Assembly (NCBI GenBank): GCA_027490195.1
Contig: JAIXYN010000008.1
Location: forward strand, 1-64,000
Direction of reading: 5' to 3'
DNA: 64,000 nt
From: Verrucomicrobiaceae bacterium
GTDB taxonomy: Bacteria > Verrucomicrobiota > Verrucomicrobiia > Verrucomicrobiales > Verrucomicrobiaceae
Position numbers and translations under genes: made by a program. Below the pieces are notes generated by a model, which saw nothing but the letters and a program-made list of their open reading frames with translations, had not been told where the DNA came from and did not search any database. Position 1 is the first letter of the stretch, and the number at the start of each line of letters is the position of its first letter. Of the stretch, positions 11,047 through 36,447 are shown piece after piece.

Positions 11047-14000
11047 TCAGGAGATGGAACCGGTGCGGCGGCGGCGGAGCATGAGACCGAGAAGGCCGAG
11101 CATGAGGAAGAGCACACGGGAAGGCTCAGGGACGACGACGAGAATGCCATTGCTGGCGAAGAGATCGGAATTGAAGCTCAGGCCATTGAGCGTCAATCCG
11201 GTGTAATCGAAGGAGGTTGTTCCGGCGATGCTGCCTGCGGCTGTCCAGTCGATGAGTTTGAAGATGTCGCCGTAAGATGGATTGTAGCCGTAGAGGAAAG
11301 TGGGGTCGATTTTGAGGGTGCCGTTGATGGTGGGAGCTGAGATCCCATTGACGAGAATGTTGTCGTGCAGGGTGGTGCCCGCGAGGTAAGTGCTCCAGGC
11401 AGGAGGCACACTGCCAATCAGCCCAGTCAGATTGCCATTGCTGTCCATCTGCGACTGAATGGTGAAGGCATCGTTGGCGGTGGCACCCCCGAGCTGCATG
11501 AGGAGCGTGCCACCGGAACTGACGGTGAGAGCACCGGTGAGCGTGAGCCGGCCTTCGGCTTCCACACCCGGGGCAACCATACCCCCCCTGCTCACGATCA
11601 AATCTCCGCCGACAGTGCCGGTGCCGCCGAGGATGCCATTGTTAACCGTTAGCGTGCCGGTGTTGGTGTTGGACGCCATCAACAACAGGGTGCCAGCGCC
11701 TTCTTTGGTGAGGGCGCCGCCGCCGGTGACGATGCTGTTGACGGTCAGCGTGGTGGAAGCTGCGATGTCAAAGGAGCCGCCGCCTGCAGCGACAGTGACG
11801 CCGCGGCTGGTGCTCAAAGAAGTTGTCGCAGTGGTCTTCAGAGTGCCGCTGGTGCTGCCCCCGCCGAGGGTCAGCTGGTCGGCGACGTACGCACCCGGTG
11901 TGGCACCCAGATTTGCCTCCGAGGAGATCTGGACAGCGCCATTGCTGATGGTGGTCTTGCCGGTGAAGGTGCTGCTGTTGTCTCCGCTGAGGATCCAAGT
12001 GCCGGAGCCCACTGAACTTTTGAAGAGGCGCTGTGATCCGGTGATCTGGCCATTGATTTCACCGTCACCAGGGCCGCCAATGACAAAATCCTGGGTGCCG
12101 GAGCTGAGATCGACCGCACCGACAATCAGCAAGCTGGAACCTGCCGCAGAAAGGATGCGCACGCGGTTATTGGCATCCGTTCCGGTATTGACGGTGATGG
12201 CGGTGCTCCAGGTGTTATTGCCGTCGGCATTGCTGAGGATTGCGTCACCACCTGCGCCAGCAGTCAGGGAGAGCGTCTCGTCAGTAACGGTGATGTTGTT
12301 GGAGAGCTGCAGGTTGCCGCCTGCGGCCACACTGGTGCCATTGGTGGTGGTGCCGAGGGCGCTGCCGTTGGAGATGATGAGAAGACCGGCGGAGACCGTC
12401 GTGGCACCGGAGTAGCTGTTGGCGGTGTCGAGAGTCAGGGTGCCGGAGGTGGTTTTGTTGAGCGTCCCGCCACCATTGAGCTCAAGGAGGTTTCTGAGGG
12501 TGCCGGATTGGGCATTGAAGGTAATAGGAGCGCCGGATGAGCCGATGCTGCCATTGGTCATGTCAAGCATGCCGCCATTCAAGGTGATGGCGACGGTCTC
12601 TGAACCGACGCCGTTGGTGTAGGCGATGTTGCCACCAACGCTGAGGGAACCACCGGTGATGTTGATGGCGTTGTTGATCGAGTTTTGGACGAACAGCGAG
12701 GTGCTGCCCATGCTGATGTCATTGGTCACCGTCACAGAGCCCGAGCTGATGTTCAGCGTGGAGGCGGCGGTGGTGGCGGCGCCCACGGAAGCCTGGTTGG
12801 CGTTCACGGCCATGTTGAGGGAACCAATGGTGGTGGTGCTTCCAGAGACGTTCACCGTGGCTGAGACGCCACTGGTGGAGCCTGAAGCGCCGCTGCCAGC
12901 GTTGCTGCCCATGTTGAGGGTGGAGATGCTGGTGGTGCCGATGCCACTGATGCTGAGCGTGGAGGTGGTTGCGCCTGTGGAGACTGCCGTGCCGACCGAA
13001 TTGGAGCTCATGGTGAGCGTGCCGATGGTCACCGAGGTGCCAGAGGTGGTGCCGCCGAGATTGAGCGTGCCGGTGATGGCACCAGAGGTGAGGGTGGTAC
13101 CGCTGCGGATGGCCAGATTGACGGTGGTGGCATCAAGAACACCTGTGTCAAAAGTGAAGGAGCCAGTGCCGCCAGTTCCTGCGCCGCCGCTGCGGCCAGC
13201 AATGGCCAGAGTGCCCAGCAACAGATCTGCGCTGTGGGCCGAGAGATCCACCAAGCCACTGAGGGCAAAACCGGTGGTGGCGCCGCCATTTTGAACGTTC
13301 ATGTCGGCACGTCCGGTACCGGCAAGATTGCGAACTTTGAATGTTCCGTTGGAACCATTGAAGTCCAGAGTGCCCATGCCGCGATTGGCCGCGCCACCAA
13401 TGGTGATGGTGTTGGCGTTAAACTCATTGGCACCACTGCCGAGCTTGATGACCTGAGTCACATTGCCGTCGGGTGAGTCAGAGGTGATGGTCGTGGCGAC
13501 AATGGTGCTGCTGGCCGCCAAGATGAGCGTTGAGCCTGCGGTGCCGGTGCCGCTCGAATTGGTGCCCTGCCCAACCCTGAAAGTGCCGGTGCCAAGATTG
13601 GCATAGAACGTGGAGAGACCGCTCATATCCCAAATGCCTGCGTTGCTGATGTTTGCGGTCGTGCCGTTGCCGACGACTACGTTCTGATTGGTGGCGGCAC
13701 CGACGGCACCAATGGTGAGAGTGCCCGCGCCGGTGACGGTCAGCCTGGTGAAGGAAGTGGCTGCGGAGTTGTAGCCCAGGGCCACGGCGTTGTTGAAGCG
13801 CAGGGTCTGGCCGCTGCCAATGCTGATGGTGTTGGCCGTGGCCGCATTGGTCTGGACCAAAAAGGCACCGGTAAAGGTGGCGCTGCCGTTGTCCAAATTG
13901 AGGGTGCTGAGATTTGCAGAGCCGGCTGAGGCACCGATAGTCAGGCCGCCGGTGAGGGCTGCGGTGGTGGTGATGGCGGTGGTGCCGCCATCCAAGGTGG

Positions 14001-17000
14001 TCAGTCCGGTGTAGTTGCTGGCCGCCGTGGAGCTCAGACCTGAGAGCGTGAGAGTGCCGGAACCGTCTTTGTTGAGGGTGCCGGTGGTCGTGGCGATGCG
14101 GCTAGCGATGGTGGTATTGCCCGAGCCGCCGACCGTGAGGCCAAAGGTGGCACCGGTGATGGGGCCGGTATTGCTGAGGGTCAGGGTGTCGGCGTCTGAA
14201 TTGATGCGGGTGGCAGCCGCCAGAGTCACGAGACCACCGAAGGTGTTGGTGCCGGAGATGTTGCGGAGAGCACCGCCAGTGCTGACGCCGGTGCCACTGA
14301 GGGTGAGGGCCTCAGAACCGACGGTGATGTCTCCTTGGATTTCCAAAGCAGCGCCGGAGGCGATGGTGGTGCCAGTGGCAGTGGTGCCCAGAGCGGTGTT
14401 GTTCCGGATGTTGAGCACGCCTGTGCTGACCGTCGTCAGTCCGGTGTAGGTGTTTGCACCCGTGAGAGTCAAGGTGCCGGCACCCGCCTTGGTAAGGGAG
14501 CGATTGTTTCCGCCGTCACCCACAGCACCACCGACCATGAGGTTTTGCCCTGAAACAGTGGCAGTCAGGCTGGCACCCAGAGCAACAGCGCCGGTACCGA
14601 GGTTCAGGCTCTGAGAGCCGGTGAAGGTGAAGTCACCGTTCCAGTTTACCGCGCTGTTGGAAAGTGTGGCCAGAGCAGCGCCGGTGTTGTTGAGCGTGGT
14701 GCCAGCACCGATGGTGAAGATGCCGGTGCCGAGCGCGGCGTCGCTGTTGAGGTTCAGGGTGCCCGTGGTGAGAGTGAAGGCGCCCGAGCCGGAGTTGCCG
14801 GTGCCGCTCAGGGTCAGGGCCCCAGCACCCGTCTTGGTGACGCTGCCGGTGAAGGTAACAGGGCCGCTGAGAGTGAGGGAGGAGGCACCGGTGCCATTCA
14901 CGGACCAGGTCTGCGCAGTGCTGGCAATGACGGGAGCACCGATGGTGACCGCGCCGCCATTGGCCGCCACGGCAATGCCGTTGGTGGAGCTCACTGGAGC
15001 GAGCGTCAGAGTGCTGGCTAGGCCGCCGATACCGGAATTGATCGACACCGTCGTGATCGTGGCGGGCAGGTTGGTGAACTGCAGGCTGTCGATCACAAAG
15101 GCCTGATCCAAAGTGGTGTCAATGCTGGTGCCTGAGGTGAAGGGGGCATTGGAGGCGCTAAAGATCACGGCATCGGCGCTGACTGGCGTGGTGCCGGGAT
15201 CTGTCAGGCCATCGGCCGTGCTGGACCAGTTGGTCACGCCCGTAGGTGCCCAGGAGCCGCCTGCGACCTGACCGGTCCAGTAGCGATTGCTGAGGATGAA
15301 GGTGCTGACGGAGACGAGGGTGTCTGTAGCATTGATGATGTAATTGAAACCGCTCGGAGCATTGCCCAACACGTAGTTCACCGTATTACCGCCGGGGTTC
15401 AGGCCACCGCCGGCAGCAATCAGGAGGTTGTAGGTGGTCAGACCTGCCACCGTGCCGGAGAAGTCGAGCGTGATGGTGCCGCCAGCGGATGCAGTGCCGC
15501 TGGCACCGACCGTGATGCTGTCGTTGGTGCCAAGATTGGTGAGTTCAAGCCCGAGACGCGCACCGTTGTGGAGGGTGAGCGCGGCAGCCGCATTGCCGAG
15601 GGTCAAGGTGTCGATGACCGAGTTGTTGAAGTTCATGTTGCCGGTGCCAGCCACGTTCAGAGAGCTGATGCCGCTGGAGCTGAAGGTGGCCTTGAGGGTG
15701 CCATTGCTCACCGTGACGCCAGCAGCGCCGCCGTTGAGGGTGGTGGTGCCTGCGATCTGGACGGTACCCAGGCCGGTCTTGACGAAGTCACCGCCCGTGC
15801 TTGTGACACTGGCAATGTTCAGGACGCCGGTAGGACTGGCGACGTCCACGGTGCCGTTGGCAGCGCCGATGGCGACCGAGCGGTTTAGCGAGGTGGAAGT
15901 GGCGGCGGTGTAGCTGATGCCGCCGCCGTCGAGGTTGACCACGGTCGTATTGCCAAGGGCCCCGCTGGTGGCAGGGGCGCTGCTGAAGGCGATGAAGCCG
16001 CCTGTGACGGTGAGCGGGCCGGAGAACGTATTGGCGGCGGTGAGGGTGAGCGTACCGGTGCCAGATTTGGTCAGACCCAGATTGTTTTCATCGGTGCCGG
16101 TGTTGCCGAGCTGGCCGTCGAAGGTGGTGTTGCTGCTGCTGTTGACGGTGAGGGTGGAGAGGGTGGAGGAACCGCCGACGATGCTGTTGAGGGTGTTGGC
16201 GGCAACGCTGGCCTGGATTCCCGCCACTTCCTGATTGAACCCGTTGAGCTTGTATTTGCCGAAGGTGGTGGTGCCGGAGGTGGCCTGCAGCCGGAGGATG
16301 GTGGTGATGGGAAGGGCATTGTGGATGGCGTTCTGGACCGTGTTGCCCTGAGAGCTGAATGTGGTGATGTAGGTGTCACCGGTGTAGGAGGACTGGCCTT
16401 GCAGGTTGTAGAGGGTGGAGCCGTTGTTGGCAGCGCCGCCAGCGAGGGTAAGATCGCCCGTACCAAGGATGCCCTGGGCAATGTTAATTGTGGCAAGGCC
16501 GGCCTGATAGGTGTCAAGAGCCGCACCTCCGGCGAGGGTGATGACACCGCTGAAGGTCCAAGTGCCGTTGTTTGCATTCATCAGCACCGCACCATAGGAG
16601 TTTGCACCTGCACCGACGCCGGTGCCGCTGAGAGTCAAATTATCAGCGACCGTCATGCTGGAGAGCAAGCGCAGGGCAGCGCCGCTCTGGACCACGGTGC
16701 CACCCACTGCGGAACCCAGCGTGGCGGTGGTTCCGGTGAGACTAACAATACCGCCGGAGATGGTTGTGACGCCGTCATAGGTGTTGATGCCGCTCAATAC
16801 CAGCGTGCCTGAGCCAGCTTTGGTCAAGGCGCGTGCGCCACCGGTCTGGCTGATGATACCGCTGACGGTAAGAGTGTTGGCGGTTTCGGTCACAGTCCAA
16901 GTCTGATCCGCGCCGAGGACCACCGGAGCGCCGATGGTGATGGCGGCAGGGGCTCCAGTCTGCACATTGATGCCGGAGGTGGCCACGGAAGGAGTCAGGG

Positions 17001-20000
17001 TGAGGGATCCGCCGGTGCCAGCATTTAAGTTGATGGTGCCGAGAGGACCTGTGCCCACGGTGTTGTTGAAGGTGAGATCCTTGATGCTGAAGGCGGCATC
17101 AAGCGTGGTGGTGAGCGTGGTGCCGGTGATGCCTGTGGCATTGAAGAAAACGCTGCTGTTCAGGCCAGGAGTGCCATTGGCAAAGATGGTGGCCTGGGTT
17201 CCAGAAATGTCGGTGCCAAAGTTGGTGTTGCCTGTTCCGGAAGCGGCACCGGTCCAACTGGTATTGACACCACCCTTCCAGTAGAAGTCTCCGGCCGCGG
17301 CAGTGGCAGAGAGTTGAACGAGGGTGGAGGTGATGGGCTGGAGGCTCACTTTGACGCCAGCCGCGCCAGTGATGCTGCCGAGTGAGTAGCTGGCGGTGTC
17401 GAGGCCGCCTGCTGCGGTGAGCAGGTCATAAGTGCCCACGCCGTGACCGGCGATGAAGTTGATGTTGAACTGCACGGCATTGGCCGTGGTGGCAACGGCT
17501 GAGGTGATGTAGCGGTCGTAAGCGCTGGAGGAACCGAGATCGAGACCCAGAGTGGTGGTGCCTGTGCCAGCCCCGAGATTGAGCGTGCCCGCAACGAGAT
17601 CGAGGGTCTGACCGACGGTGTTCAGGGTGTTCAAGGTGGCACCGCCTGCGACGGTGATGCCAGTGGTCTGGAGGGCGGCCCCAACGGAGCCCGTGATGCT
17701 GAGCGTACCCGCGCTGACCGTGGTGGTGCCGGAATAAGTCAGGGTGGTGCCGCTGAGGGTCTGGGTGCCCACGCCAGTCTTCACGAGGGAGATGGAACCT
17801 GAGGAGTTCTGGATCGTCCCGGCAAAAGTGGAGACCTGATCATTGCCCCCTACGGTGAGAGTGGCAGCGCCAGCGGCGGTATTGTCGAGGATGGTGGTGC
17901 CGGCGCCGCTGCTGGCAAAGCCGTTAACGGACTGGTTGAAGCCGTTGAGATCCAAGGTGGCGGTGACTGCTGTGGCGGGATTGAATGAAACGTTGCCTCT
18001 GCCGGTGCCACCAGGAATGACCGAGCTGGCACCCATCTTGACCGTGCCTGCGGAGATGGTGGTATTGCCAGAGTAGGTGTTTGCGCCGCTGAGGGTGGTC
18101 GTGCCAGTGTTGGTGATGGTCAGAGCGTTGTTGGTGGTGGTTCCTGCGCCATTGGCGATGACACCTGTGATGGTGGTGTTTCCAGAACCTGCGATGGTGA
18201 GCGTGCGGGCCGTGGCGCCCGTGTCATTGTTGATGTCCACGCTACCGATCGTCAGGGTGCTCCCAGCACCTATGTTGTTGGTGAGTGTGCGACTGCCGCC
18301 GGTGGCACCGGTGAGCTTGCCGTTGAGGTCGAGGCTTTGAGTGCCGGTCACCGTTACTGCTGTCAGGAGGACGGCGTTGGAAAGGCTGCGGGAGGCGTTC
18401 AATGCCTGAATCGTACCGGCAGTGAGGGTGAGCAGACCGCTGGCGATGCCGCCGTTCGAACTGCCGTTGAACTGGAGATTGCCGGCGGTCAAGGTGAAGG
18501 CACCCGAGCTGCTGTTGCTGCCGGAGAGCACCAAGGTGCCCGTTGAATTCATGGTGGTGGTGCCGGTATAGGTGCTCGAACCACTGAGGGTGGTGATACC
18601 GGTATTGGTGATGCTGAAGGCGCTTGAGAGGCCAGCGCCATTGGCGTCCCTGATGTCACCGAGCACGGAGGTATTGGCAGCGCCGGCGATGGTCAGGCCA
18701 CCGGCTACGGTCAAGGAATTGGACAGGAACACGCTGGAACCCGCCTGGCCGATGGTCAGCGAGCCACCGCCAGTGATGCTGTTCGTCAGGGTGCGGCCCG
18801 CAGCATTCACGACTGAGAAGTTGCCGCTCATGGTCAGGCTTTGCGAGCCCGATACCGTGACTGCGGTGAAGGAGACCGGATTGGAAATGGTGCGCGCAGC
18901 GCCGACTGCCTGCAAGGTGCCTGCCGAGAGGGTGAGGGTGCCGACCGCGGCAATACCGCCGTTGACGGAACCACCGAGCTGGATGGTGCCATTGGTCAAA
19001 GTCGTGCCGCCAGTGCCGCTGTTGCTGCCATTGAATACCATCGTGCTGCCCGCGGTGGTCTGGGTGGTGGTGCCGCCGTAGTTGCTGGCACCGTTCAGCG
19101 TCATGATGCCGGTGCCGGTGAAGGTCAGGCCGCTGGCGGTCGAAGAACCGCCGTTGGTGACGGCACCATTGATGATCACGTTGGCGGAGCCGGTGATGAC
19201 GTCAATGCGGCTGGTGGCGTTGTTGCTCAGGGCATAGCTGCCGAGAACGAAGGTGTTGCCCGCCCCATTGACGGTGATGGTGTTGATGCCGGTGCCGGTG
19301 GTGTTGGTCATGGCCCCGAGTGTCAGCGTCCTGCCGGTGCCGCCGATGGTGATTGTTTGAGCGGTGACACTGTTGTTCACAGCGCCGGTGCCGAAATTCA
19401 GATCATTGCTACCGGTGAAGATGAAGCTGCCATTGATGGTCACGCTGTTGTTCTGCGCAAGGGTGAGTGCGGAGCCGGTGATGTTGTCGATGGTGCCGCC
19501 GCTGATGATGATGGTGCCACCGGCAAGACCGCCGTTGTTGGCGCCGGTGTTGTTCAGAAGGAGAGTGCCCGCCGTGAGTGTGGTGCCACCGATGGCGCTG
19601 CTGTTGGTGCCGGAGGTTCTGAGCGTCGCCGAGGCATTGTTCAAAACAGTCACGCCGCTGTAGCTGTTTGCACCCGTCAGCTCCAAGGAGCCCGATCCCA
19701 CCTGTTGGAGACCGCCGGAACCAGACACTGTAGCACCGAAGGTGACCACGTCGCTGCGATTGAAGGAGAGTGTGCCGTTGTCCGTGATGGTGGTACCATT
19801 GCTGAGACTGCCGGTGGTGCCGCCATTGCCCAGCTGCAGGGTTGCGCCGGAGTTGACCTGCGTGGCGCCCGTGTAGGTGTTGGCATTGGTCAGCGTGGTG
19901 GTGCCGGAAGCAATGATGAGGCCGGTCTTGAAGGTGCCTGAACCCAGTTCGTCCCTGATGAGGCCGCCAAACGAGGAGGTGCCGTTGATGGTAAGGAATC

Positions 20001-29000: not shown

Positions 29001-32000
29001 ATGCGGCGGAACCCACTGTGATGGCACCTGGAAGGGTGTAGCCGGTGAGCAAGGCCAGCGCCCCGCCATTGATGGTGGTGGTGCCGGTGAAATTGCTGGT
29101 GGACTGGCCGAGAACCAAAGTGCCGCCGGTGATATTGATGCCGCCCGTGAAGGTCTTGTCTCCGAGAAGGTAGATGGTGCCGGGGCCCGTCGAAGTGAAC
29201 GTCCTAGTGCCGCCGGATTCGCCGATGGCTCCCGTCAGGATAAGGCTGGTGCCGGCCGCCGCGCCGAAATTGAACGAGCTACTCGCAAGGGTGGAAGTCT
29301 TGTTGATGTTGAACGACTGCGAGATGGTGCCGAAACCGCCGAGAGGCATGCCGAAGGCATTGGCGCTGTTGGCACTGGTGGCGGCTGAGACGGTGTTGAT
29401 GGTGGTGGTGCCGGTGCTGCCGGTTTGCAGCACGAAGGGATTATTGACTACGACGCCGCTGGCTCCGACGGAGAGGGTGGCAGCACTGCTGCCCGTCGTG
29501 TCCCCGATGAGGATGGTGCCACCTGAGTTGGCACTGGTGGCGGCGTAAACGACGGAACCATTGGTCACATTGACGGTTCCGGTGCCGGTGGCACCTGCGC
29601 CAGCCAGGACGAGGTAGGTGCCGTTGGTGACATTGATGGTGCCGGAATACGTGCTGGGGGAGGTGCCGCCGATGGAGAGCGCTGATGGAGAACCGGTGGT
29701 GGTCAGGGTGATGGTACGGGCGACACCGCCATCATTCAAGGTGCCCAAGCCCAGTGTGGCAATGCCCGCACCGTTGACGTTGTTCAGATTGAACGTGGGA
29801 CTGCCGGAAAGCGTGGTGGATGTGAATGCGACGTGGGCCACAGCAGGGGCGGTGTTGCCGTTGCCACTGATGAAAGTCAGCGTGCCTCCACCCATGGTCA
29901 GAGCACCGAAGGTCTCGGTGATGTTTGTCGCAGCTGCGGTGACGCGTCCCGAACTGAGGGTGATATCACCGTTGAGGGTCACATTGTTGCCGAGGACGCC
30001 GCCACCGTTGACGCGTAGGTCCAGCGTGGTGCCTGAGGCCATGATGATGGCTGCTTTGCTGCCGGAGCCGCCGAGGGCATTGATGTTGCCGAGCCGGAGT
30101 GTGCCGGCGTTCACAAAGACGGAATTTCCGGCCGTGATTGCACTGCTGTAGTCATTTCCCAGCCACAACACACCGGCACCCGTTTTGGTGAGATTGGAAG
30201 AGAGGGCAAACTGCGAGGCGTCATCCATCTGAAGGATGCTGCCGGTGCCCACATCAAAGGTGCCGCCTCCGGTGCCGACGACAAAAACTTTGCCGCTGCC
30301 CGATGTCACGTTGATCGTGCTTGAGCCATTCACACTGATGATGCCGCCATTCTGCACGGTGTAGGTGTGCGCACCGGCCGCGCCGATGGTGCTGTTAACA
30401 TCAGCATTGCTCAAGGCAGCGCTGCTGAAGGAAAGAGTGGTGCCGCTGCCGGTGACGACCACATTTCCTGTGAAGGTGTTCGTGCCGGCCAAGGTCACCA
30501 TGCCGCCACCGGCGATGGTCATGGCGGTGTTGGCCACCCCAGGCAGGGGGCCGCCGCTGATGATGCCTGAAAGGACCAGATTCGTGCCTGAGCCGACATT
30601 GATCGTCTGGCCTGTCGTGCTACCAACGAGAGATCCAAGGGCAATGTTTTGAGAGACAGTCGAGGAGGCGCCGGAGTACATCAAGGTGACGACGTTGGAA
30701 GAAGTACCGAGAGAGAGGGTATTCAAGGCATGGCCAAGCTGCGCAGCCGCGCTGAACTGCAGGGTGCCGGCCAGCACATTGACCGAGGTTCCTGCGCCGC
30801 CGAAGACACTGCCACTGCCGGTCAGTGCCAGTGTGCCTGCTCCTGCTTTGTTCAGACTCACGCCTGCAGCGCCGCTGATGACGCCGCTGACGGCAAGAGT
30901 CGAGCCACTGTCTGCCACGGTCCAGGTTTGTGTCGCTCCCAAGGTGAGGGGAGCAGAGATGTTGACGCTCGCAGGGGCTCCGGTCTGCATGTTGATGCCG
31001 TCAGTCGATGCGCCCGGTGCGATCGTCAGTGTGTTTGTGCCCGCGCCCGAAGCGATGGTGAGGGTGTTGAGCGGGCCGGAGCCTTTGTTGCTGTTGATCA
31101 CCAAGTCGTTGATGGAAATATTCGCATCCAGCGTGGTGGTGAGAGAGGTGGCGCTGAGACCGTTGCCGCTGAAGACCACCGTATTGGCGGAGCCGGGGGT
31201 GGTCTGCGCGTTGTTGGTGCCGAGAATGTCGGTGGTCCAGTTGGTGTCCGTGGAATTGAAGGTGGTCCAGGAATTGTCAAAACTGCCCTTCCAAAAGAGA
31301 CTGCCAGTGACAGCTGCCGTCGGAGTAATGCTGACCAGGGAGCCGGTGACACTGCTGGTGAAGGTGTAGCCACCGAGGAGCACCTTGTAGGAAGCAGTGT
31401 CCAGGCCGCTGGGCGCAGCGAGGAGGTTGTAAGTGCTGCCCAGAGTGAAACCCGTGATGGGAGTGACATTGAGATTGACGGTACCGGTGGTGACGGCGGC
31501 ATTGCTGGTGGTGAGGGTGCCGGTGGAGGTGCCTGCTTCGATCCCCAGATTGGCGGGGCCGATGCCGCTCCCGAGATTGAGGGTGGTGAGGCCGGAAAGG
31601 GCGGTGCCGGTGCCGTTGAGAAGATTCAATGTACCACCGCCGCTGACGGTGACAGCAGTGATCGCGCCGGGGGTGGATAGGGTGCCATTGATGGTGATGC
31701 TGCCGCCGGCGGCGTTCAGTGTCGCAACGTTGCTGATGGAGCCGCTGTTCAGAATGCTAATCCTGGCGCCTGCATTGGCGGTCAGAGATGCCGAGCCATT
31801 GAGTGAACCTGCGACAAACAGCGCTCCTGCATTGGACGTGGTGGCGCCGGTGTAGGTGTTCGCGCCGCTCAAAGTGAGGATGCCGTTGCCATTTTTGGTG
31901 AGACCGCCGCTGGTGTTGGCTGAGGTCGTGACCGCGCCATCCGTGGTTGCCGCCGTCACTGCACCACCCCCGGTGAGGGTGTAAGTGGGTGTGCCGGTGT

Positions 32001-35000
32001 AGCCGACACCCGGATTGGTGATGGTGAAGCCTGCCACTCGGAAGGTCCCGGATCCTGTGCCGTCATCCACCATGTTGGCGATGGCGGTGGCCCCCGTGCC
32101 GCCGCCGCCTGTGATGAGGACGAGCGGAGCACCGATGTAGCCGCTGCCCTGCGTGCCGGGAGTCCCGATGCTGGCGACGCCATTGCCAGTCGGAGTGATC
32201 AGCGGCTGGGCGATGTTGACGGAGAAACCATTGGTGTCGATGACCGCCCCGCCAGCGAAGGCACCAAAGGCCCCATTGACATAGGCATTGCCGGCAACAG
32301 CCATGCCGGTGGTCAGATCGAGGAAAGCGGTGTTGCTGCCCGTGGCCTGCAATGTGCCGCCATTGAAGTTAAAGGTTCCAGTGGAGGTGCCCGTGGCACC
32401 TTTGGTGATGGTGAATGTTTGCAAAGTGCCGCCGTTGAGATTGGCGATGTTGGTTGCACCTGCGGCGTTATTCTGGCCAAAGGACACCGCACGCACGGGG
32501 CCGTTCATGATGGTGCCACCGAGCACGTTGAGAGTGTAGGTGCCAGCCGTGGCTCCCCAGCCGATGGCCAAATTTTGCGTCCCTGCAGAGTGATCGATCG
32601 TGCCACCTGTGATGCTTACCGAAGCGCCGGTGCCGGTGGCGCGTCCAAAGATGAGGTACTCGCCTACCGAGAGATTGCCGCCCGAAATCATCACGACCCC
32701 AGTTCCTGCATTTGCGGGCTGGAACCTTCCCACACTCACTGTCCCGCCTGACATGTTTAAATAACCGTAAGAGCCGGCAACAGCGCCAAACGCGAAGTTG
32801 GTGTCAGAGGCGGATGTCGGACTGATCACCGCGGTGGCACCGGGGAGAATGTTCAGAGCCGAATTGGCGGCGGCAAGGTTTCCAACAACGATATTGTTGA
32901 TCGTCACATTGGAGCCTGAATTCAAATTGAGCACGGAATTGCCGGCCACCCCCCCCAGGGTCCATCCGCCAGCGCCCGTATTGACCGTTCCGTTCAGGTT
33001 TGTGGCATAGGAGCCGTTCGCAACCGCAGTGGCACCGTTCAGAGCCATGGCACCCGTGGCGGTGAAGTTGCCATTGATGACGAGCGTTCCCGCACCTGTG
33101 GCGGTGATGCCGCCCGCACCGGAAATGGTGGAGTTGATGGTGAGGTCAGCTGAAGCGCTGGTGCTGTTGGCCGTGCTGAAGGGTGTCGCGGCGGTCGTCA
33201 GGTTGATGGTGCCGCCGTTGACCTGGCCACCGAGGACGTTGGTCGTGGCTGCGAAAGAGATGCCTCTGGCGGCGGAAAAGGTCAGCGTGCCGCCGTTGAG
33301 ATTGATCACCGGGGTGGCCGTGGTGGCGGCGCTTGTGCCGCCGAGGGTGATGGTCTGCGAGGTGGTGAAGGCGCGACCATTTAAATCAAGACCTGACACC
33401 GTACCTGCGACCAACGGGATGATGCTGATCGCGGAGCCGGAGGCGAGCGCATTGTCCACGCCCAACTGGATGTAGCCGTTATTGATGATGGTGGCACCGG
33501 TGTAGAGGCTGACCCCACCCAAATTGAGGGTGCCGGAACCGTTTTTGGTGAGCGCCAAGTTTGCCGCCGTACCGCTGCTCTGCAGCACACCGGTGTAAGT
33601 GGAGGACATGTTGTTGGCGCCGACGGTGAGGACGGTGCCAGCAGTCGCGCCACTGTTAAAGATACTGCCCGCGCCCGCGATTCCGCCGGCACTGAGCGCG
33701 AAATTGTTCATGTCGAGAGAACCATTGACGATGACCGTGCCGCCGGCCGCAGCCAGGGATGAGGCAACCGTTGGCCTGTAGGTGACACCGGTACCGATGG
33801 TTGTCTGGCCGGTATAGGTCGCGGCAACACTGGGGGAGTAAAAGGAACCCGCCGTTCCGGAATTGATGAGCGTGAGACCGCCTGCGGTGCCTGCGACTGC
33901 ACTTGCGACTGCGAGGGTGTTGCCGCTGCCGACGATATCGAAGGTGGCTGTGCCACCTGTGAGTGCGAAGGTGTGCGATGCCGCACCACTGCCTGCAATC
34001 GAGAGCGAAGATGTGGTCTGAAAAGTGGCACCGTCATTGAGGGTGATGATCGTAGCGGCGGCGGCGTTGCCGAGCTGGTTGTTATTGCTCACACTGAGCG
34101 TGCCGCTGTTGATGGAAATCGCGCCGCTAAAGGAGTTAGCGCCGGAGAGAATGAGCCGGCCCGTGCCCGCCTTGGTCAGTGCGGTGGCCCCTGTCGTGCC
34201 ATCGGCAATGATCGCACCGATGGTCAAATCGGCCGAACTGTATTGATGGATGACCAAATCCCCCGTGGTGGCGGAGTTGCTTGTTAGGGTGCCGGTGGTG
34301 CTGGTGATGCTGTAGGCATTGGAGCCGGTGAAGAGCAGGCCGCCGGCGGTGAGAGCCAGATTATTAGCACCCAGTGTGAAGGACTGGGAGGCTCCTGAAG
34401 GTGCGATTTTCAGGGTGTTGGTGGTGATACTGCCGAGGGGAGCCACGGAACCGGTCGCCAGGGAGTTGTTGGTGTCAGAACCGGCGGCTGGAGTGGCGCC
34501 CAAGGTCGTGTAGGAACCAGAGGCTAACCCCGTGATTGGGTTGGCGGCGGTGCCTCCGTTGGTGGCCCAGTCATAGCCAGCGCCGTTGTTTGTGTAAACG
34601 TAGCGAGCGCTGAAGATGTTTTGCACCAGCGTTATGGTGCTAGTGAAGACACCGTTGTTCGCTGCCGAGGGAGCATTGATCAGCAGGGAGGAGCCAGCCG
34701 TCGTGGGTGCCGTGAGCGTGGTGAGCTGTAATCTGGTGAGTGCGCCACCACCTGGATCCACGACGACGATCTGACCACCGCGCGCGCCTACCGTGATAGC
34801 GCCCAAGGTTTGCGTCACGGTGGCACCGCTGCGACCGGTGACCCTGAGGGTGCCGCCGCCGAGGGTCATCGCGCGGGCAGTGGTCATGCTGGCAGTGGCA
34901 GAGCCATTCACTGCGTAGTTGATGTCCACTGTGCCAGCATTGAGCGTCCAGGCGCCCGTATTGTTACCCACATTGGCCGTGGGAGTGGCAATGGTGAGCG

Positions 35001-36447
35001 TGCCACCCGAATTTTTGACCAACGTCATGTTGGCAGCAGTTGCTGCGCTGAAAGTACCCGACCAGGTGGTGTTCTGAGGACCGGCGGTGTTGCCGAGGGT
35101 CAGTGCGGCGGTGGTGCCGCTGCTGTTGTTGATGGTACCAGAGCCGCTGATGGAGGCGACTGTGACCGCGAGCGCATTGACATCAAAGGTGGCACCCGAA
35201 TTGACCGTGAGCGAGGTGCCCGCAGGGAGCGATGAGGCGATGCCGTTTTGCAAGGTGCCGAAAGCGACCGTGGTGGAACCGGCATAGGTGGCTGCACCGG
35301 AGAGCCTTAAAATGCCCGTGTTGCCAGAGGTGCCAACGGTCAGCGAGCCAGGGCCATTGATCGCGGTGCTGTTTGTGAGAGTCTGGCCTGATGCGACTGC
35401 GATGGTGCCCCCGGAGGCCCCAAGCCCAATGGCATTGGTCATGGTGGTTGTGGTGGTGTTGAGCAAGGCACCCCCATTAAGCACGACATAGCCGCCGCCC
35501 AGCGTGGTGTTCAGGCCGAAACTCACGGTTCCGGCATTGACGATGGTGTTGACCAAGGCGGTGCTGTTGGATGTGCTGGTAAAAGTCAGGGTGCCGGAGT
35601 TCGTCTTGGTGAGATTGACCGTGCCAGCCGCAGTGCTGGTGCCTGTGATGCCGACGACGGAGAGAGCTCCATCGACCGTCAAGGTGTTGGTCACATCCAA
35701 GTTTGCGCCACCGACACCGATGATAGGCCCGCGGTTAGCACCGAGACTGAAGGTGCCGGAGGTCTGGAGAGTGCCGCCGGTAAACCTAAGCGTGTTGGAA
35801 GCGCCGCCGGAACCCAGGTTGTTCGCTGCCGTGATGATGATCGTGCCACCGGCGAGATTGACGCCGCCGCCAAAAGTGTTCGCACCCGCAAGCGTCAAGG
35901 CACCCGCACCGAATTTGGTGAAACCAAAGTTCGAGCCGCCATCACTGATAACGCCAGTATTGATGGTCAGACTGCCTGCGCCGCCCAGAAAGGCACTGGT
36001 TCCAAGCACTAGGTTTGAAGTGATGGTGGTGGAGCCTGTGGTGGCATTTACCACGGGGGACAACCCACCCGCAGGGCTGAGCGTGAGGTTGCTGCCGCCG
36101 CCCGCAAGCGTGTAGCCGCCGACATTGAACGTCAGTCCGGCAACCGTGATCGGTGCCCCCAAAGTCACCGTTCCCGCTGTGCCAGCGAAGACCGTTGTGT
36201 CGCCCGCGTTGAGCAAATTGCTCCAAGCCTGATCGAAGGCCGTGACCCCATTCCACCAGTTTGCGTTGCTGGTATTCCAAGTGCCCGAGCCGCCGAGGCC
36301 CGTACCGGTGGAAGCGTTGCCCGTTGCAAATGCATCAGCGTCCCAGTAGAGCGTTGCTGCCTGCAAAGGCTGGCCGATTTGCCATGAAAGCATCAATGCC
36401 GTCATGAGCGTGCCGATGAACCGCCGGTAAGCGCGTAAGTACTTCAT
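11047..36447 (-). CDS. Giant exported protein of autotransporter-associated beta-strand repeats with PEP-CTERM-type tail (8466 aa)
   Basis: A single uninterrupted 25.4-kb frame. The N-terminus MKYLRAYRRF..LMTALMLSW..QPLQA is a signal peptide with cleavage near residue 30. The body is Gly/Thr/Ser/Ala/Asn-rich and repeats the PATR motif (TIGR02601 type), for example LTKAGAGTLTLTGANTYTGL and FTKSGAGVLWVTGSNSGFLG. I counted at least 27 clear copies and many weaker ones. This implies a very long right-handed beta-solenoid. Trp-rich headers (YWDAD near 33, LFWKGSFDNSW near 1714, PKWTGFDTT near 4861, FYWKGGVNTSW near 6386, RYWTGQVAGGSW near 7053) divide it into five sections. The C-terminus is VVVPEPSRVLF, a hydrophobic stretch and RRRR, a PEP-CTERM sorting signal (exosortase substrate), not an autotransporter barrel. 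A surface adhesin or matrix protein is the likely role; this is inferred. Neighbours give no further clue. Confidence 0.9.
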   Translation of the reverse strand: MKYLRAYRRFIGTLMTALMLSWQIGQPLQAATLYWDADAFATGNASTGTGLGGSGTWNTSNANWWNGVTAFDQAWSNLLNAGDTTVFAGTAGTVTLGAPITVAGLTFNVGGYTLAGGGSNLTLSPAGGLSPVVNATTGSTTITSNLVLGTSAFLGGAGSLTINTGVISDGGSNFGFTKFGAGALTLAGANTFGGGVNLAGGTIIITAANNLGSGGASNTLRFTGGTLQTSGTFSLGANRGPIIGVGGANLDVTNTLTVDGALSVVGITGTSTAAGTVNLTKTNSGTLTFTSTSNSTALVNTIVNAGTVSFGLNTTLGGGYVVLNGGALLNTTTTTMTNAIGLGASGGTIAVASGQTLTNSTAINGPGSLTVGTSGNTGILRLSGAATYAGSTTVAFGTLQNGIASSLPAGTSLTVNSGATFDVNALAVTVASISGSGTINNSSGTTAALTLGNTAGPQNTTWSGTFSAATAANMTLVKNSGGTLTIATPTANVGNNTGAWTLNAGTVDINYAVNGSATASMTTARAMTLGGGTLRVTGRSGATVTQTLGAITVGARGGQIVVVDPGGGALTRLQLTTLTAPTTAGSSLLINAPSAANNGVFTSTITLVQNIFSARYVYTNNGAGYDWATNGGTAANPITGLASGSYTTLGATPAAGSDTNNSLATGSVAPLGSITTNTLKIAPSGASQSFTLGANNLALTAGGLLFTGSNAYSITSTTGTLTSNSATTGDLVIHQYSSADLTIGAIIADGTTGATALTKAGTGRLILSGANSFSGAISINSGTLSVSNNNQLGNAAAATIITLNDGATFQTTSSLSIAGSGAASHTFALTGGTATFDIVGSGNTLAVASAVAGTAGGLTLINSGTAGSFYSPSVAATYTGQTTIGTGVTYRPTVASSLAAAGGTVIVNGSLDMNNFALSAGGIAGAGSIFNSGATAGTVLTVGANNMSSTYTGVLQSSGTAANLALTKNGSGTLNLGGVSLYTGATIINNGYIQLGVDNALASGSAISIIPLVAGTVSGLDLNGRAFTTSQTITLGGTSAATTATPVINLNGGTLTFSAARGISFAATTNVLGGQVNGGTINLTTAATPFSTANSTSASADLTINSTISGAGGITATGAGTLVINGNFTATGAMALNGATAVANGSYATNLNGTVNTGAGGWTLGGVAGNSVLNLNSGSNVTINNIVVGNLAAANSALNILPGATAVISPTSASDTNFAFGAVAGSYGYLNMSGGTVSVGRFQPANAGTGVVMISGGNLSVGEYLIFGRATGTGASVSITGGTIDHSAGTQNLAIGWGATAGTYTLNVLGGTIMNGPVRAVSFGQNNAAGATNIANLNGGTLQTFTITKGATGTSTGTFNFNGGTLQATGSNTAFLDLTTGMAVAGNAYVNGAFGAFAGGAVIDTNGFSVNIAQPLITPTGNGVASIGTPGTQGSGYIGAPLVLITGGGGTGATAIANMVDDGTGSGTFRVAGFTITNPGVGYTGTPTYTLTGGGAVTAATTDGAVTTSANTSGGLTKNGNGILTLSGANTYTGATTSNAGALFVAGSLNGSASLTANAGARISILNSGSISNVATLNAAGGSITINGTLSTPGAITAVTVSGGGTLNLLNGTGTALSGLTTLNLGSGIGPANLGIEAGTSTGTLTTSNAAVTTGTVNLNVTPITGFTLGSTYNLLAAPSGLDTASYKVLLGGYTFTSSVTGSLVSITPTAAVTGSLFWKGSFDNSWTTFNSTDTNWTTDILGTNNAQTTPGSANTVVFSGNGLSATSLTTTLDANISINDLVINSNKGSGPLNTLTIASGAGTNTLTIAPGASTDGINMQTGAPASVNISAPLTLGATQTWTVADSGSTLAVSGVISGAAGVSLNKAGAGTLALTGSGSVFGGAGTSVNVLAGTLQFSAAAQLGHALNTLSLGTSSNVVTLMYSGASSTVSQNIALGSLVGSTTGQTINVGSGTNLVLSGIISGGPLPGVANTAMTIAGGGMVTLAGTNTFTGNVVVTGSGTTLSFSSAALSNADVNSTIGAAGAHTYTVQNGGIISVNGSSTINVTSGSGKVFVVGTGGGTFDVGTGSILQMDDASQFALSSNLTKTGAGVLWLGNDYSSAITAGNSVFVNAGTLRLGNINALGGSGSKAAIIMASGTTLDLRVNGGGVLGNNVTLNGDITLSSGRVTAAATNITETFGALTMGGGTLTFISGNGNTAPAVAHVAFTSTTLSGSPTFNLNNVNGAGIATLGLGTLNDGGVARTITLTTTGSPSALSIGGTSPSTYSGTINVTNGTYLVLAGAGATGTGTVNVTNGSVVYAATSANSGGTILIGDTTGSSAATLSVGASGVVVNNPFVLQTGSTGTTTINTVSAATSANSANAFGMPLGGFGTISQSFNINKTSTLASSSFNFGAAAGTSLILTGAIGESGGTRTFTSTGPGTIYLLGDKTFTGGINITGGTLVLGQSTSNFTGTTTINGGALALLTGYTLPGAITVGSAASGSSIQYLVGGVTTDLSSSLTLTNGGNLTLDVLPTVSITYATAFGSSTTSGLSKAGGGTLTLAPATGSNTFTGPLTVGAGTLNLNFVSGGTASNIVSGSSILQMQGGTLTVNGNTNTNAVAQAFASTNLQAGQSVVTLTKGSATTVGLTLGAITRSAGAAINFSLLPASTSINIAGNSNNAAGILGGWATYNTSATLTDWAMNNGSNLVAPYAGYTAMSSANANTGTVTTNFNIASGTITPTTSSAISINSLRLQANSTVLALGTANRLTINNSNGGIMYALTSGTGTISGTAAVATGLGMVSTGTASGGELLIYVNAGGTLTISAGVGGVASTTNGFGITKSGGGTLNLTNGTASNLNNYNGQTVINGGVLQALAPDRLGSSSGITLNGGTLFSGSTSLSGSITQALTLGLSGGTLSYNSTTGTGSGNGGWNNATAIAFLGSGSRTLTLTGTNTDRIATLVGALGDGGGPTSLIVSGGTVTSGFQLSGANSYSGPTLLQGGYLILNNASALPSMSALTFNGTGSNLAELEFTATSGTTFTRSLGTGTGQVQWLGNGGFSAGAGTNTATGSVIVNLGGAGATVTWGSGGFVPSSFTLGFNQSSLNNPSLGAVDFQNGIDFGNATTRTIEVANGSYAFNTSGIASSNTGFDAKLSGNLLSTSTGGFTKSGAGVLWVTGSNSGFLGNMTIANGFTLFANASALPANAGGLTVSSTATATGGVVLLGQTNFTTLFSRLNSASSGTLALDTSSAENINFNAAGLTNARFGAFSTVVYQGLFTPGTAGVYKLNGPQGNNVANAAGLSSLVLTRQNAISGTASTLDVGSGILLLGSSNAFGDPTRGVNIQPQAALNGAAGGNSAVVYVAKDGALGSGPISLTNAQSVTATPSMVLGAAYGDHTLANNISINNTGGITNVNFVLGGDTASDLVPSAGRMTYTGTLSVAGTSNIVINPRTTGYILNGSISGSPIIHISGGASLVVFNNLNNTLTPSAYSSSTLFMSSAPTFLIGNSRDLGDTATARVLNWNSNAIFGILPGVGDITTSSNITFGDNGNNFNKIIDVPTSQTLKVASGLISANRTGQLYTKTGTGTFDIGAILNPGTGASTWGTAGIEIRQGTLKADFGNAAAATNIIGLAATGTAAAPLTLSGGTLLLVGKSGVANTQAFGALTVNLGANAITLNSNGATLGASFTSMGTRAAGGTVALTLPEAVPASVTVTTGLVSQNSLLVDTAGRKSAFMVVGTQNTLGGAITDWASVSGTAIVALSSYTATTGTTISGNATVATSVDTTLAANAAADSLRFNLAEARTLNLGGFTLNTGGILVTSAVGANASTISGGSLSTASGAAANADLVIYQDNANAAGALTISAGIVDNGANAVALTKSGAGELVLSGASSFSGNLNLNAGAVTFNAVNGLGSGNGAINLAGAALRYTGASDPSNSGTLTNANVNILRPTTLTVDNGATLTMTGTVTSTLLSPVFEQLTKTGAGTLSLSGNGSNVLLVVVQQGTLILNKSGGNVNAVGVSAINVLSNVGLTVENGALVKLGGDSASGDQILNSTSVQLNGTGTLDLAGRNETIDGLGGQAASIITNSNTLGAVLTVGSSSMALGGPKQYDGVLQDGAGTLGLTMIGGNIFTLTGVNTYTGKTTITGQQYLTTGVYFGGISISSEANLGSNPVNFTSDQWSLNGGRLVMTDNVTLDASRNNVGITLGAGGGIFEVADTKTFTIAAANIITGTGGFTKEGLGTVVMLGGANSYTGKTILNQGVLSISAQGALGGNPVATTADQLTFNGGQLVTTASLSLNDSNRGITIQGYGGTLTPALGTTLTVTDDISGTGDLTINGAGTVVLGGANTPWTGKTLLLGGELQISSDVNLGTPPTSAVANQLQISNNAIFRLTADMSFNVNRGVTIGTGGATINVDASKLATIAGNLALDAGTLTKTGAGVLVLSGTSSAASGTQVAVSAGVLRLASTGALSTSSNVSLSGGAVIELVSSDFTRALGTGNNEIQWTGSGGFGAYGADRNVNLGGAGATVVWNSGSFVPTGSALVLSSSTSDSTVNLQNGIDTNGALRTVQVADGSSATDAVLSGSLSDSGTGGGIVKTGAGTLSLTGSSTYAGTTQISGGTLLAGAANVFSSSSAFTLNNTAGVTLDLSSNNQTIGSLSGGGATGGNVALGSGVLTAGGNNATTFYDGVISGTSGGLSKVGTGNMSLTNAQAYTGATTISGGGLFVNSTLATSGVSVGASGTLGGSGSIAALTTVSSGGTLQAGDVTSTGSLTLSGGLTFLGGGTIKVGQVAEGTPNILNVGALTVGSAAASITINVITNSPSGYVNATPYTLLTYTGGSILGTAGFSAFTLGTIAGTNSRTTGTLADTGSAITLTLTAENPKWTGFDTTAGAASSRWAQDDTLFVNPVTNWATSTPTSYLEGDVVLFDDSATGSKTVDISDGDVHPSSVTFNNSSGAGNIYTITGSNGMAGTANLTKSGAGTLVINNTNSFNGGIILNGGVIQLGATGALGTTNGLLFGASVAAGTKLQLNSNSITLAGLNTNATPGSAVVENGGGADATLTLNLQTVGGPPSGDATSVFAGVLQDGSSGSLGLTQTGNGSLTLTGASTYTGLTTISGGTLRIGNGGTTGSIVGTGGITNNASLIFNRSDAYSYTGNITGTGITQVTGGGTLTLTGSLGSTGGTTIDSTNTLNIGNGGAGGSIFGNILNNGALKFNTTSTGLVVSGNITGTGSLENIAGVTILAGTNNFGTGSSTTITGGTLQIGNGGTTGSITGNILDNGVLAFSRSDNSTFAGNITGSGSVLINMSSPAAVKTLSGTNDYLGGVSIAQGVLALGSTTAVPTGSAVSIGGTGTSGTLDLNGFNLSVSSLTTAGVAANQTITNNSTTSNSVLTYNSAASSTFGGLLSNGASRNISLVVTGGGTLDLANTNSFTGGVSVLNGTIQLDANGALGTGAITLGTTGTNGVLDLNGFSQTVSSLAVGAGAVAGSQIVGNSSTSADGFLTINGTSSFGGLIRDELGSGTFKTGLIIASGTTTLTNANTYTGATQVNSGATLQLGNGGTTGSLSNGTTITDNGTLSFNRSDVVTFGATVSGSGGLQQVGSGSLELTGANSYSGVTVLNNASATLRTSGTNSSAIGGTTLTAGTLLLNNTGANNGGLAGGTIIISGGTIDNITGSALTLAQNNSVTINGSFIFTGSNDLNFGTGAVNNSVTAQTITIGGTGRTLTLGAMTNTTGTGINTITVNGAGNTFVLGSYALSNNATSRIDVITGSANVIINGAVTNGGSSTASGLTFTGTGIMTLNGASNYGGTTTQTTAGSTMVFNGSNSGTGGTTLTNGTIQLGGSVNGGIAAVGTLTLSAGTLQAVGAARTISNPVSFTAVTVSGSQSLTMSGNFSVVNAAGRTLTNSITGGGSLTIGQAGSSVFLSNSLTVAGGLTIAGAANTSVLGDIRDANGAGLSSAFSITNTGITTLSGSSTYTGTTTMNSTGTLVLSGSNSSSGAFTLTAGNLQFNGSSNGGIASGLLTLTAGTIQALNASRSLSNAVLLTAVTVTGTQSLDLNGKLTGATGGSRTLTNNIGAGSTLTIGSVDINNDTGATARTLTIAGSGNTTITGVIANGAGTTTNNALTITNTGTTTLSGANTYSGNTTISAGTVKMGASSVIPGGTGRGNVSFNPATAVTATLDLNGFNQSVNGFASSGAGTTILDNTAAGAATLTVGGNDQVSTFAGTIQNSSGSISLVKTGVGTQTLSGTTLTYSGTTTVSAGTLSITGSVGAALQTTGITVAGGATLNTLNTVGQTLDLVAGTLNLGAGTGTTTLGLDLGSSSAYDRYITSAVATTANAVQFNINFIAGHGVGTYDLLTAAGGLDTASYSLGSITGAAGVKVSLQPITSTLVQLSATAAAGDFYWKGGVNTSWTGAASGTGNTNFGTDISGTQATIFANGTPGLNSSVFFNATGITGTTLTTTLDAAFSIKDLTFNNTVGTGPLGTINLNAGTGGSLTLTPSVATSGINVQTGAPAAITIGAPVVLGADQTWTVTETANTLTVSGIISQTGGARALTKAGSGTLVLSGINTYDGVTTISGGIVSLTGTTATLGSAVGGTVVQSGAALRLLSSMTVADNLTLSGTGVGAGANSYGAVLMNANNGTWTFSGVITLAGGAALDTYQAGLATINIAQGILGTGDLTLAGGAANNGSTLYNLQGQSSYTGDTYITTFSSQGNTVQNAIHNALPITTILRLQATSGTTTFGKYKLNGFNQEVAGIQASVAANTLNSIVGGSSTLSTLTVNSSSNTTFDGQLGNTGTDENNLGLTKSGTGTLTLTAANTFSGPLTVTGGFIAFSSAPATSGALGNTTVVNLDGGGISYTAATSTSLNRSVAIGAANGTVDVASPTGVLNIASVTSTGGDFVKTGLGTVQIAGTTTLNGGAAGVTVSNGTLKATFSSSGISSLNVAGTGNMNFNNSVIDTLTLGNAAAALTLHNGARLGLELTNLGTNDSITVGASGTASAGGTITLDFSGTVAGLTTYNLLIAAGGGLNPGGNTVNYVLGNAPSGFNYIINATDTLVSVSTFILSNRYWTGQVAGGSWAPTGVTNWSSTADGLTDPGTTPVSADAVIFSASNAPFTSGTSIDTTLDQAFVIDSLQFTNLPATITTVSINSGIGGLASTLTLAPVSSTNGIAVAANGGAVTIGAPVIASTAQTWSVNGTGASSLTLSGPVTFTGSVTKTGAGALTLSGTGNSGSGAFTLTTGTLNLNSDAALGTGIFTIGAGTTLNNTGAALATLSNSAVNWNGDFTFTGSQSLNLGTGAVALGASLTATVSGQNLMVGGAVGDGGNNRSLTKAGAGTLTLTGANTYTGLTTVSTGVLNIRNNTALGTTATGTTIASGAALEIQGDITVGSEALTLSGTGVSTGGALRNISGTNTFGGLVTLAAATRINSDADTLTLSNTGPITGATFGLTVGGSGNTTIASRIATTTGTLNKDGSGTLTLSGLSSTAASNYTGLTTLDGGTTAITTTAALTGGLTIGASAGSANLSTLNLDNGSATFTGAFLVQTNAATANTISIGSGQTLRFNNAVALGYNSAATSFTRLTVTGAGTLTIGAVGAATNQNVVVGNGTTANISNAGIWDMSGLSTFYANLGTGTFRVGQGTNSSGTGTAGSTLILAASSTIVATTITSDSPDGNVTQVIKLGSGANEFNANTITIGGAANRGMGTLDFNGSNGTFKVRNLAGTGRADMNVQNGGATTGFALSGLVDLSAHSADLLLGTLAIAGRSGGAGTGGTGSFTFDTGVLDATTVNLAIRSGTTLTSGAITGTLNLGGTTSGTSVTIGTLTMSSNSVGTAVSTGATTSTLSISGIGTTSISTLNMGSNAGSGASGSTSGVSATVNVSGSTTTIGSLNMAVNANQASVGAATTAASTLNISSGSVTVTNDISMGSTSLFVQNSINNAINITGGSLSVGGNIAYTNGVGSETVAITLNGGMLDMTNGSIGSSGAPITFNAQSGTLRNLLELNGGGTLNKTTSGTLTLDTANSYSGATTVSAGLLIISNGSALGTTTNGTSVAAGGNLQLSNNITVTDETLSLTAGAGGDAILSNADGNNTWSTAITVNTGTDANNRVRILSAAGSSLLIVGAVDLSSGTQDFVIGGPGDGEINGQITGSQRLFKSSVGSGTWILSGDNSSTFTGKTTISNGAVQISSEANLGATPGAYVADQLTLGGGSTSGTLKTTATTSLSTSRGVTVAAGGGSFDIAASTTLTVNSIVTGGGALTKEGAGTLLLMASNTNTGTLTVNNGILGGTGTVGGDLIVSRGGMVAPGVEAEGRLTLTGALTVSSGGTLLMQLGGATANDAFTIQSQMDSNGNLTGLIGSVPPAWSTYLAGTTLHDNILVNGISAPTINGTLKIDPTFLYGYNPSYGDIFKLIDWTAAGSIAGTTSFDYTGLTLNGLSFNSDLFASNGILVVVPEPSRVLFLMLGLLGLMLRRRRTGSIS
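11060..11134 (-). other. PEP-CTERM-like sorting signal coding region
   Basis: It encodes VPEPS, a 14-residue hydrophobic helix (RVLFLMLGLLGLML) and an RRRR cluster, the three-part layout of PEP-CTERM tails recognised by exosortase/EpsH-type enzymes. No exosortase gene is present in the window. Confidence 0.8.
14800..15440 (-). repeat. Intragenic module copy C of the giant gene
   Basis: It encodes about 210 residues running from a YNLLIAAGGGLN segment through the RYWTG header, TTLDQAFVIDSLQF and TAQTWSV to TKTGAGALTLSG. The same order of motifs occurs at 16800-17445 and 30830-31440. Boundaries are approximate. Confidence 0.6.
16800..17445 (-). repeat. Intragenic module copy B of the giant gene
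   Basis: It encodes YDLLTAAGGLDTASY, the FYWKGG header, TTTLDAAFSIKDLTFNN, GINVQTGAPAAITIGAP, DQTWTV and TVSGIIS. It is closely similar to copy A (30830-31440), which shares GLDTASY, FWKG, TTTLDANISI, GINMQTGAPA, TQTWTV and VSGVIS in the same order. Boundaries are approximate. Confidence 0.65.
30830..31440 (-). repeat. Intragenic module copy A of the giant gene
   Basis: It encodes YNLLAAPSGLDTASY, the LFWKGSFDNSW header, TTTLDANISINDLVINS, GPLNTLTIASG, DGINMQTGAPASV, TQTWTV and VSGVIS. It is a longer duplicated unit than the short PATR repeats. Boundaries are approximate. Confidence 0.65.

Follow-up and report, generated by a model that had tools for sequence, protein, structure and literature searches.

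An intact giant gene with PATR repeats and an exosortase tail

The 64,000-nucleotide stretch of DNA analysed here (the window) carries a real gene of 8,466 codons whose product joins a body of autotransporter-type PATR repeats to a C-terminal PEP-CTERM tail. Giants of this type recur across the genus, where a group of them is strongly coupled to a cassette of genes resembling minor pseudopilins, and this coupling makes the cassette a candidate for the step that takes such proteins over the outer membrane.

The open reading frame spans 25 kb from an ATG start without an internal stop (Table 1). Its GC3 is 0.743, with values of 0.69–0.80 in the adjoining genes, and no obvious Shine-Dalgarno sequence was seen in the intergenic region upstream of it. 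The body of the protein is rich in Thr, Gly, Ala, Ser and Asn, while Cys stands at 0.0% in the composition table. The signal-peptide-like start, read by eye, is kept in paralogs and orthologs, and its style is common to other giants. It is followed by a cap-like region that has no match among Pfam families and in which A31, T32, L33, W35, W65 and further positions are invariant in the alignment of paralogs.

Repeats were counted in three tiles, with matches that passed the curated cut-offs, giving 28 stretches for Pfam PF12951 (PATR; 7 + 11 + 10) and 25 for TIGR02601 (7 + 10 + 8); a profile tuned on the repeats of the same genome found 41. Judged by BLAST of protein tiles, three internal modules are duplicated but diverged copies (35–47% identical). 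Analysis of hydrophobic periodicity in the giant gave no strong single coil period. The C-terminal end, VVVPEPSRVLFLMLGLLGLMLRRRRTGSIS, scored as PEP-CTERM above the curated cut-off of TIGR02595 (26.5 bits when the genome was searched and 23.9 bits for the tile, against a cut-off of 16). With PF07589 the tail scored 17.4, below that family's own cut-off of 20.7; PF07589 does not recognise all PEP-CTERM proteins, those of V. spinosum being among the ones it misses (Haft et al. 2006, PMC1569441).

A Pfam scan of the giant detected neither the PF03797 autotransporter barrel nor, at E 0.01, a TPS secretion domain. The protein fits a type Va autotransporter in its PATR/beta-helix passenger but not in the C-terminal PF03797 beta-barrel, and it lacks the TPS domain and the adjacent TpsB barrel of type Vb (TpsA) systems, no partner barrel gene being found next to it. 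The sequence-only reading of this DNA had described one intact gene of 8,466 residues with at least 27 PATR repeats, a VPEPS-hydrophobic-RRRR tail and no autotransporter beta-barrel. This description was borne out by the unbroken frame, the HMM counts set against the claimed number of repeats, the TIGR02595 score and the Pfam scan.

The neighbours of the giant are two Band-7/SPFH genes, two sulfatases and an epimerase. The sulfatases (window:36448-39758) lie side by side, divergent from the giant, and are syntenic in relatives. Further along, two similar genes whose C-terminal domains match ‘NAD glycohydrolase translocation F5/8 type C’ are followed by a PGA_cap capsule-synthesis-like gene (window:51910-57090), and an FHA domain is fused to a LuxR-type helix-turn-helix at window:60600-61514.

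Table 1. Coordinates of the giant gene, its parts and related loci in the same genome
Feature	Position	Strand	Remarks
Giant PATR / PEP-CTERM protein gene	11047..36447	(-)	8,466 aa, single frame, ortholog conservation
N-terminal signal peptide	36358..36447	(-)	aa 1-30; by eye and by paralog/ortholog alignment
Cap-like N-terminal region, ‘ATLYWD...GSGTWN...NWW’	36073..36357	(-)	aa 31-125; conserved in paralogs
PATR / beta-strand repeat region	11629..35922	(-)	aa 176-8273; 41 tuned-profile and 25-28 family-level matches
Internal homologous module, copy 1	30817..31497	(-)	aa 1651-1877; 47% identical to aa 6319-6553
Internal homologous module, copy 2	16789..17493	(-)	aa 6319-6553
Internal homologous module, copy 3	14647..15444	(-)	aa 7002-7267; 37% identical to copy 2 region, 35% to copy 1 region
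Conserved C-terminal region with PEP-CTERM tail	11050..11829	(-)	aa 8207-8466; common to six proteins of the genome
PEP-CTERM sorting signal	11065..11133	(-)	VPEPSR, predicted transmembrane helix, RRRR; TIGR02595
Longer PATR giant	G000:C83:236370-279473		14,367 aa; same signal-peptide style, PEP-CTERM-type tail
Longer PATR giant	G000:C11:39508-75759		12,083 aa (conserved start taken); same signal-peptide style, PEP-CTERM-type tail
Longer PATR giant	G000:C73:40673-73804		11,043 aa; same signal-peptide style, tail reads PEAS not PEPS
Verru_Chthon cassette A-D	G000:C11:31813-39378 (L084:5813-13379)		Directly downstream of the 12-kaa C11 giant
Exosortase C24			EpsI-like domain fused
Exosortase C59			EpsI-like gene downstream; FkbM-family methyltransferase gene close upstream

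The frame is conserved in syntenic orthologs

The giant is a real gene: compared with a syntenic ortholog of the same length, its whole frame is under purifying selection. This ortholog, from a congener (G059:C7; 8,479 aa, 77.5% identity, dN 0.157, dS 0.93, dN/dS 0.17), shares the flanking epimerase, Band-7 pair and sulfatase with the window, and gap columns are few in each 500-aa block of the alignment. A search of genome contigs for related loci returned one good relative and two weak ones. The good relative, in the public MAG UBA7681 (G021:C80), also a congener, is a second ortholog, syntenic on the sulfatase side, with 7,614 aa, 64% identity, dN 0.288, dS 1.0 and dN/dS 0.29. VVVPEPSR...RRRR is kept in both orthologs. 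Beside the UBA7681 ortholog lies a second PATR gene of more than 2,073 aa (G021:C80:41997-48218), which has no counterpart at the corresponding position in the window.

Since the gene is rich in repeats and the draft genome is in 101 contigs, the frame could be suspected of being an artefact of assembly or prediction, with repeats misjoined into one over-long frame. However, no exact DNA repeat in the giant frame exceeds 21 nt, and the tandem repeats are short and not numerous. The length of the frame is thus unlikely to have arisen through reads being collapsed or expanded. Since a syntenic ortholog of near-equal length exists, aligned with few gaps at a dS near 1, there is likewise no sign of frameshifts. 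Giants are also found on long contigs elsewhere, such as one of 10,134 aa in a 6-contig assembly (G024). We rejected the artefact as essentially refuted by the 21-nt longest repeat and the conserved syntenic ortholog, and leave it a negligible probability.

Giants in the same genome and in the family

Adjacent BtubA- and BtubB-like tubulins are present in the genome (best PDB matches BtubA and BtubB at about 1e-126). These tubulins are a hallmark of Prosthecobacter, and on their presence we assign the genome, by inference at the genus level, to a Prosthecobacter-type member of Verrucomicrobiota.

The 7-Mb draft encodes four such giants, and the window protein is the fourth longest among them. 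Smaller PATR/PEP-CTERM relatives occur on contigs C10 (1,822 aa) and C28. The C28 gene (L038:2924-7099) seems to be split into two frames, of 489 and 774 aa, with about 380 bp between them, either a broken gene or an assembly error. A PATR protein of 6,195 aa (G000:C13:15690-34277) has no PEP-CTERM tail and carries another repeat at its end (WQRTFDG...DPNGNVWMAGSA).

The profile of the conserved C-terminal region matched all 68 of the 68 family genomes searched, and the same search showed open frames of 8,000–14,000 aa to be common in the genus. Among the matches listed from an even sampling of the rest of the phylum, no frame exceeded 5,338 aa. The sequence-only reading had called a solenoid of this length extreme among bacterial proteins. 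That was overstated, given its rank in its own genome and the routine occurrence of comparable giants across the genus; the search for other PEP-CTERM proteins that the reading had proposed did find them, the three longer giants included.

A pseudopilin-like cassette adjoins giants across the genus

The four genes directly downstream of the C11 giant match, as A, B, C and D, NCBIfam families TIGR02600, TIGR02598, TIGR02599 and TIGR02596. They also match the minor pseudopilins GspK, GspI, GspJ and GspH in that order, weakly and below cut-offs. Matches of the C-terminal-region profile were compared with Verru_Chthon_A matches at 21 loci of the same type, and at 17 of them the tail of the giant lay 167–334 bp upstream of Verru_Chthon_A on the same strand. 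The same order was seen in G059 and G047 when their sequence was fetched. With one locus at a contig end left out, this gives 19 of 20 testable loci; in G053 the cassette is present with no PATR gene upstream. We estimate the chance of the giant-then-A order at roughly 0.0007 per locus. The giants upstream of the cassette in the genus are PATR/PEP-CTERM proteins, mostly of 9–14 kaa.

A T2SS locus with GspE-, GspF-, GspG-, GspK-, GspM- and GspD-like genes is also found in the genome (C33), so the cassette resembles an additional, specialised group of tip subunits. Lying beside the 12-kaa paralog, A–D are the best candidate for a dedicated pseudopilus tip. No pseudopilin gene adjoins the window giant, downstream of which the Band-7 genes lie on the other strand and cassette A is absent. 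Because protein A is present in a single copy, against at least four giants, the cassette would have to act in trans, and any service to the window giant would be of this kind. The linkage of cassette and giant was not found in the literature searched, in which neither the Verru_Chthon cassette nor TIGR02601 is named; it may already stand in curators' family notes.

Exosortases and barrel autotransporters coexist

The sequence-only reading had named beforehand a genome search for exosortases, with their absence, together with that of any detectable protein, to count against it. Two exosortase genes (PF09721) were found, both above the TIGR02602 cut-off. Directly downstream of the C59 exosortase/EpsI-like pair lie LarE and LarB genes (nickel-pincer cofactor; L037:8936-10488).

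Five PF03797 barrel autotransporters are encoded elsewhere in the genome, and three of them carry PATR repeats (C63, C64 and C57). At G000:C64:105829-109965, two barrel autotransporters (549 and 802 aa) stand in tandem and closely resemble each other at the C-terminus. Since barrel-fused and exosortase-tailed PATR proteins coexist in the genome, PATR passengers appear to be used in two ways in the same cell, which would make the two routes directly comparable. The proposal that the giant takes a route other than type V is supported by gene content (an exosortase tail, two exosortases, no barrel).

Predicted fold

The C-terminal 567 aa were modelled from a two-sequence alignment. The mean pLDDT was 59.7, with values of 70–89 over most of the PATR stretch and about 30–35 over roughly 120 residues before the tail; at the tail itself the model places a terminal helix (tile residues 542–563). 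Among the Foldseek candidates, whose E-values were not significant (best 0.025), UpaB compared best with this tile (Z 20.4, rmsd 5.0, 333 aligned), and pertactin gave Z 18.3, rmsd 4.6 and 341 aligned. By sequence, the tile had no match in the PDB. The model suggests, with moderate confidence, a beta-solenoid; its closest matches among solved structures are autotransporter passengers.

The model of a mid-protein tile was of low confidence (pLDDT 53). Because of this tile and the low-confidence stretch before the tail, a beta-solenoid along the whole protein is predicted as likely only; the solenoid that had been read from the sequence thus holds at moderate confidence for the C-terminal tile and less well for the middle. 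Each turn of a beta-helix takes about 25 aa and adds some 0.48 nm in length. As one continuous solenoid of 8,300 aa, the giant would be about 0.16 µm long, and the largest paralog about 0.28 µm.

Proposed route to the cell surface

We consider it reasonably probable that the giant is an exosortase-processed beta-solenoid fibre that passes the outer membrane in a T2SS-type manner and is displayed at the surface. The product would be a giant, secreted, cysteine-free, right-handed beta-solenoid fibre leaving the cytoplasm by Sec export, and its PEP-CTERM tail would retain it after export. One of the two exosortases would then cut the tail, probably linking the protein to a new anchor. For passage over the outer membrane the protein would depend on a pseudopilus machine of the T2SS type and not on a barrel of its own, and as a fibre with a structural or adhesive role it would finally be exposed at the cell surface or within the extracellular matrix. 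For the window giant we infer these later steps, from tail cleavage through T2SS passage and surface display to the adhesive or structural role.

The T2SS step is proposed because of the genus-wide coupling of cassette and giant and because there is a precedent in MYXO-CTERM and GlyGly-CTERM proteins, which intramembrane sorting enzymes process before the T2SS takes them to the surface (PMC11980579). It is a more tentative suggestion that a T2SS core and a K-I-J-H tip (Verru_Chthon A–D) encoded beside one substrate form, together with exosortase anchoring, a dedicated system for fibres of 8–14 kaa. If true, such a system would explain, for at least one lineage, the passage of PEP-CTERM proteins over the outer membrane.

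The fibre could instead be anchored by an exosortase and follow an exosortase/exopolysaccharide-linked route without the T2SS, in which case the cassette would serve the adjacent paralog only or have another function. PEP-CTERM proteins have been linked to EPS genes and proposed to pass the outer membrane by a route left open (PMC1569441); an FkbM-family methyltransferase gene does lie close to the C59 exosortase, and the window giant is without an adjacent cassette. This route nevertheless seems unlikely to us in view of the strong coupling, across the genus, of the giant PATR/PEP-CTERM gene with minor pseudopilins and of the T2SS precedent in two other C-terminal sorting systems (PMC11980579). 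Still less credible, and in our judgement quite improbable, is type V-like export, in which the PATR passenger would leave through a barrel encoded elsewhere (two-partner or stand-alone) and the PEP-CTERM tail would be secondary. Although PATR repeats are typical of autotransporter passengers, which the predicted fold also resembles, and although the genome holds five PF03797 barrels, the giant shows neither barrel nor TPS domain in the Pfam scan and no partner barrel gene adjoins it. Moreover, the basic helix at its C-terminus is typical of exosortase tails, and the barrel-fused PATR proteins exist separately in the genome.

Comparison with known systems

The PEP-CTERM system was first described from Verrucomicrobium spinosum (PMC1569441), and in Akkermansia nine of 23 predicted PEP-CTERM proteins were detected by mass spectrometry (PMC4960237). 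Like the proteins of the PEP-CTERM/exosortase (EpsH) system (TIGR02595, PF07589; PMC1569441), the giant has a signal-peptide-like start, a VPEP motif, a transmembrane helix and a C-terminal Arg cluster, with exosortases in the genome; unlike the usual ones, it is far larger, has a body of PATR repeats and is one of four giants. The original description of the system did not settle how exosortase-processed proteins get over the outer membrane (PMC1569441), and no later answer was found in the literature searched. The conserved linkage of cassette and giant is a concrete, testable candidate for this missing step.

With PATR type Va autotransporters (PF12951 / TIGR02601 with PF03797) the giant shares the repeat family and, on the model, the passenger fold (UpaB, pertactin), but it has an exosortase tail in place of the barrel, true PATR-plus-barrel proteins being present in the same genome (C63, C64, C57). 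The Verru_Chthon cassette A–D adjoins the C11 paralog and not the window giant. The GlyGly-CTERM/rhombosortase and MYXO-CTERM/myxosortase systems (PMC3237569, PMC11980579) likewise use a tripartite C-terminal tail processed in the inner membrane, and their proteins are carried by the T2SS; their processing enzymes and motif are unrelated, and their substrates are of other kinds.

PVC bacteria are known for giant genes, and those described in the consulted sections of the accounts of Fuerstia marisgermanicae (PMC5177795) and of a huge-protein survey (PMC11573180) are also very long and surface-protein-like; no link between PATR repeats, PEP-CTERM tails and the cassette was found in those sections. 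The giants rank with the larger proteins of bacteria, and to encode four of them in a single genome is a heavy investment in a surface structure. Both giant PVC genes and PEP-CTERM proteins are kinds already known; what is new here, relative to the literature searched, is the coupling of the cassette to the giants.
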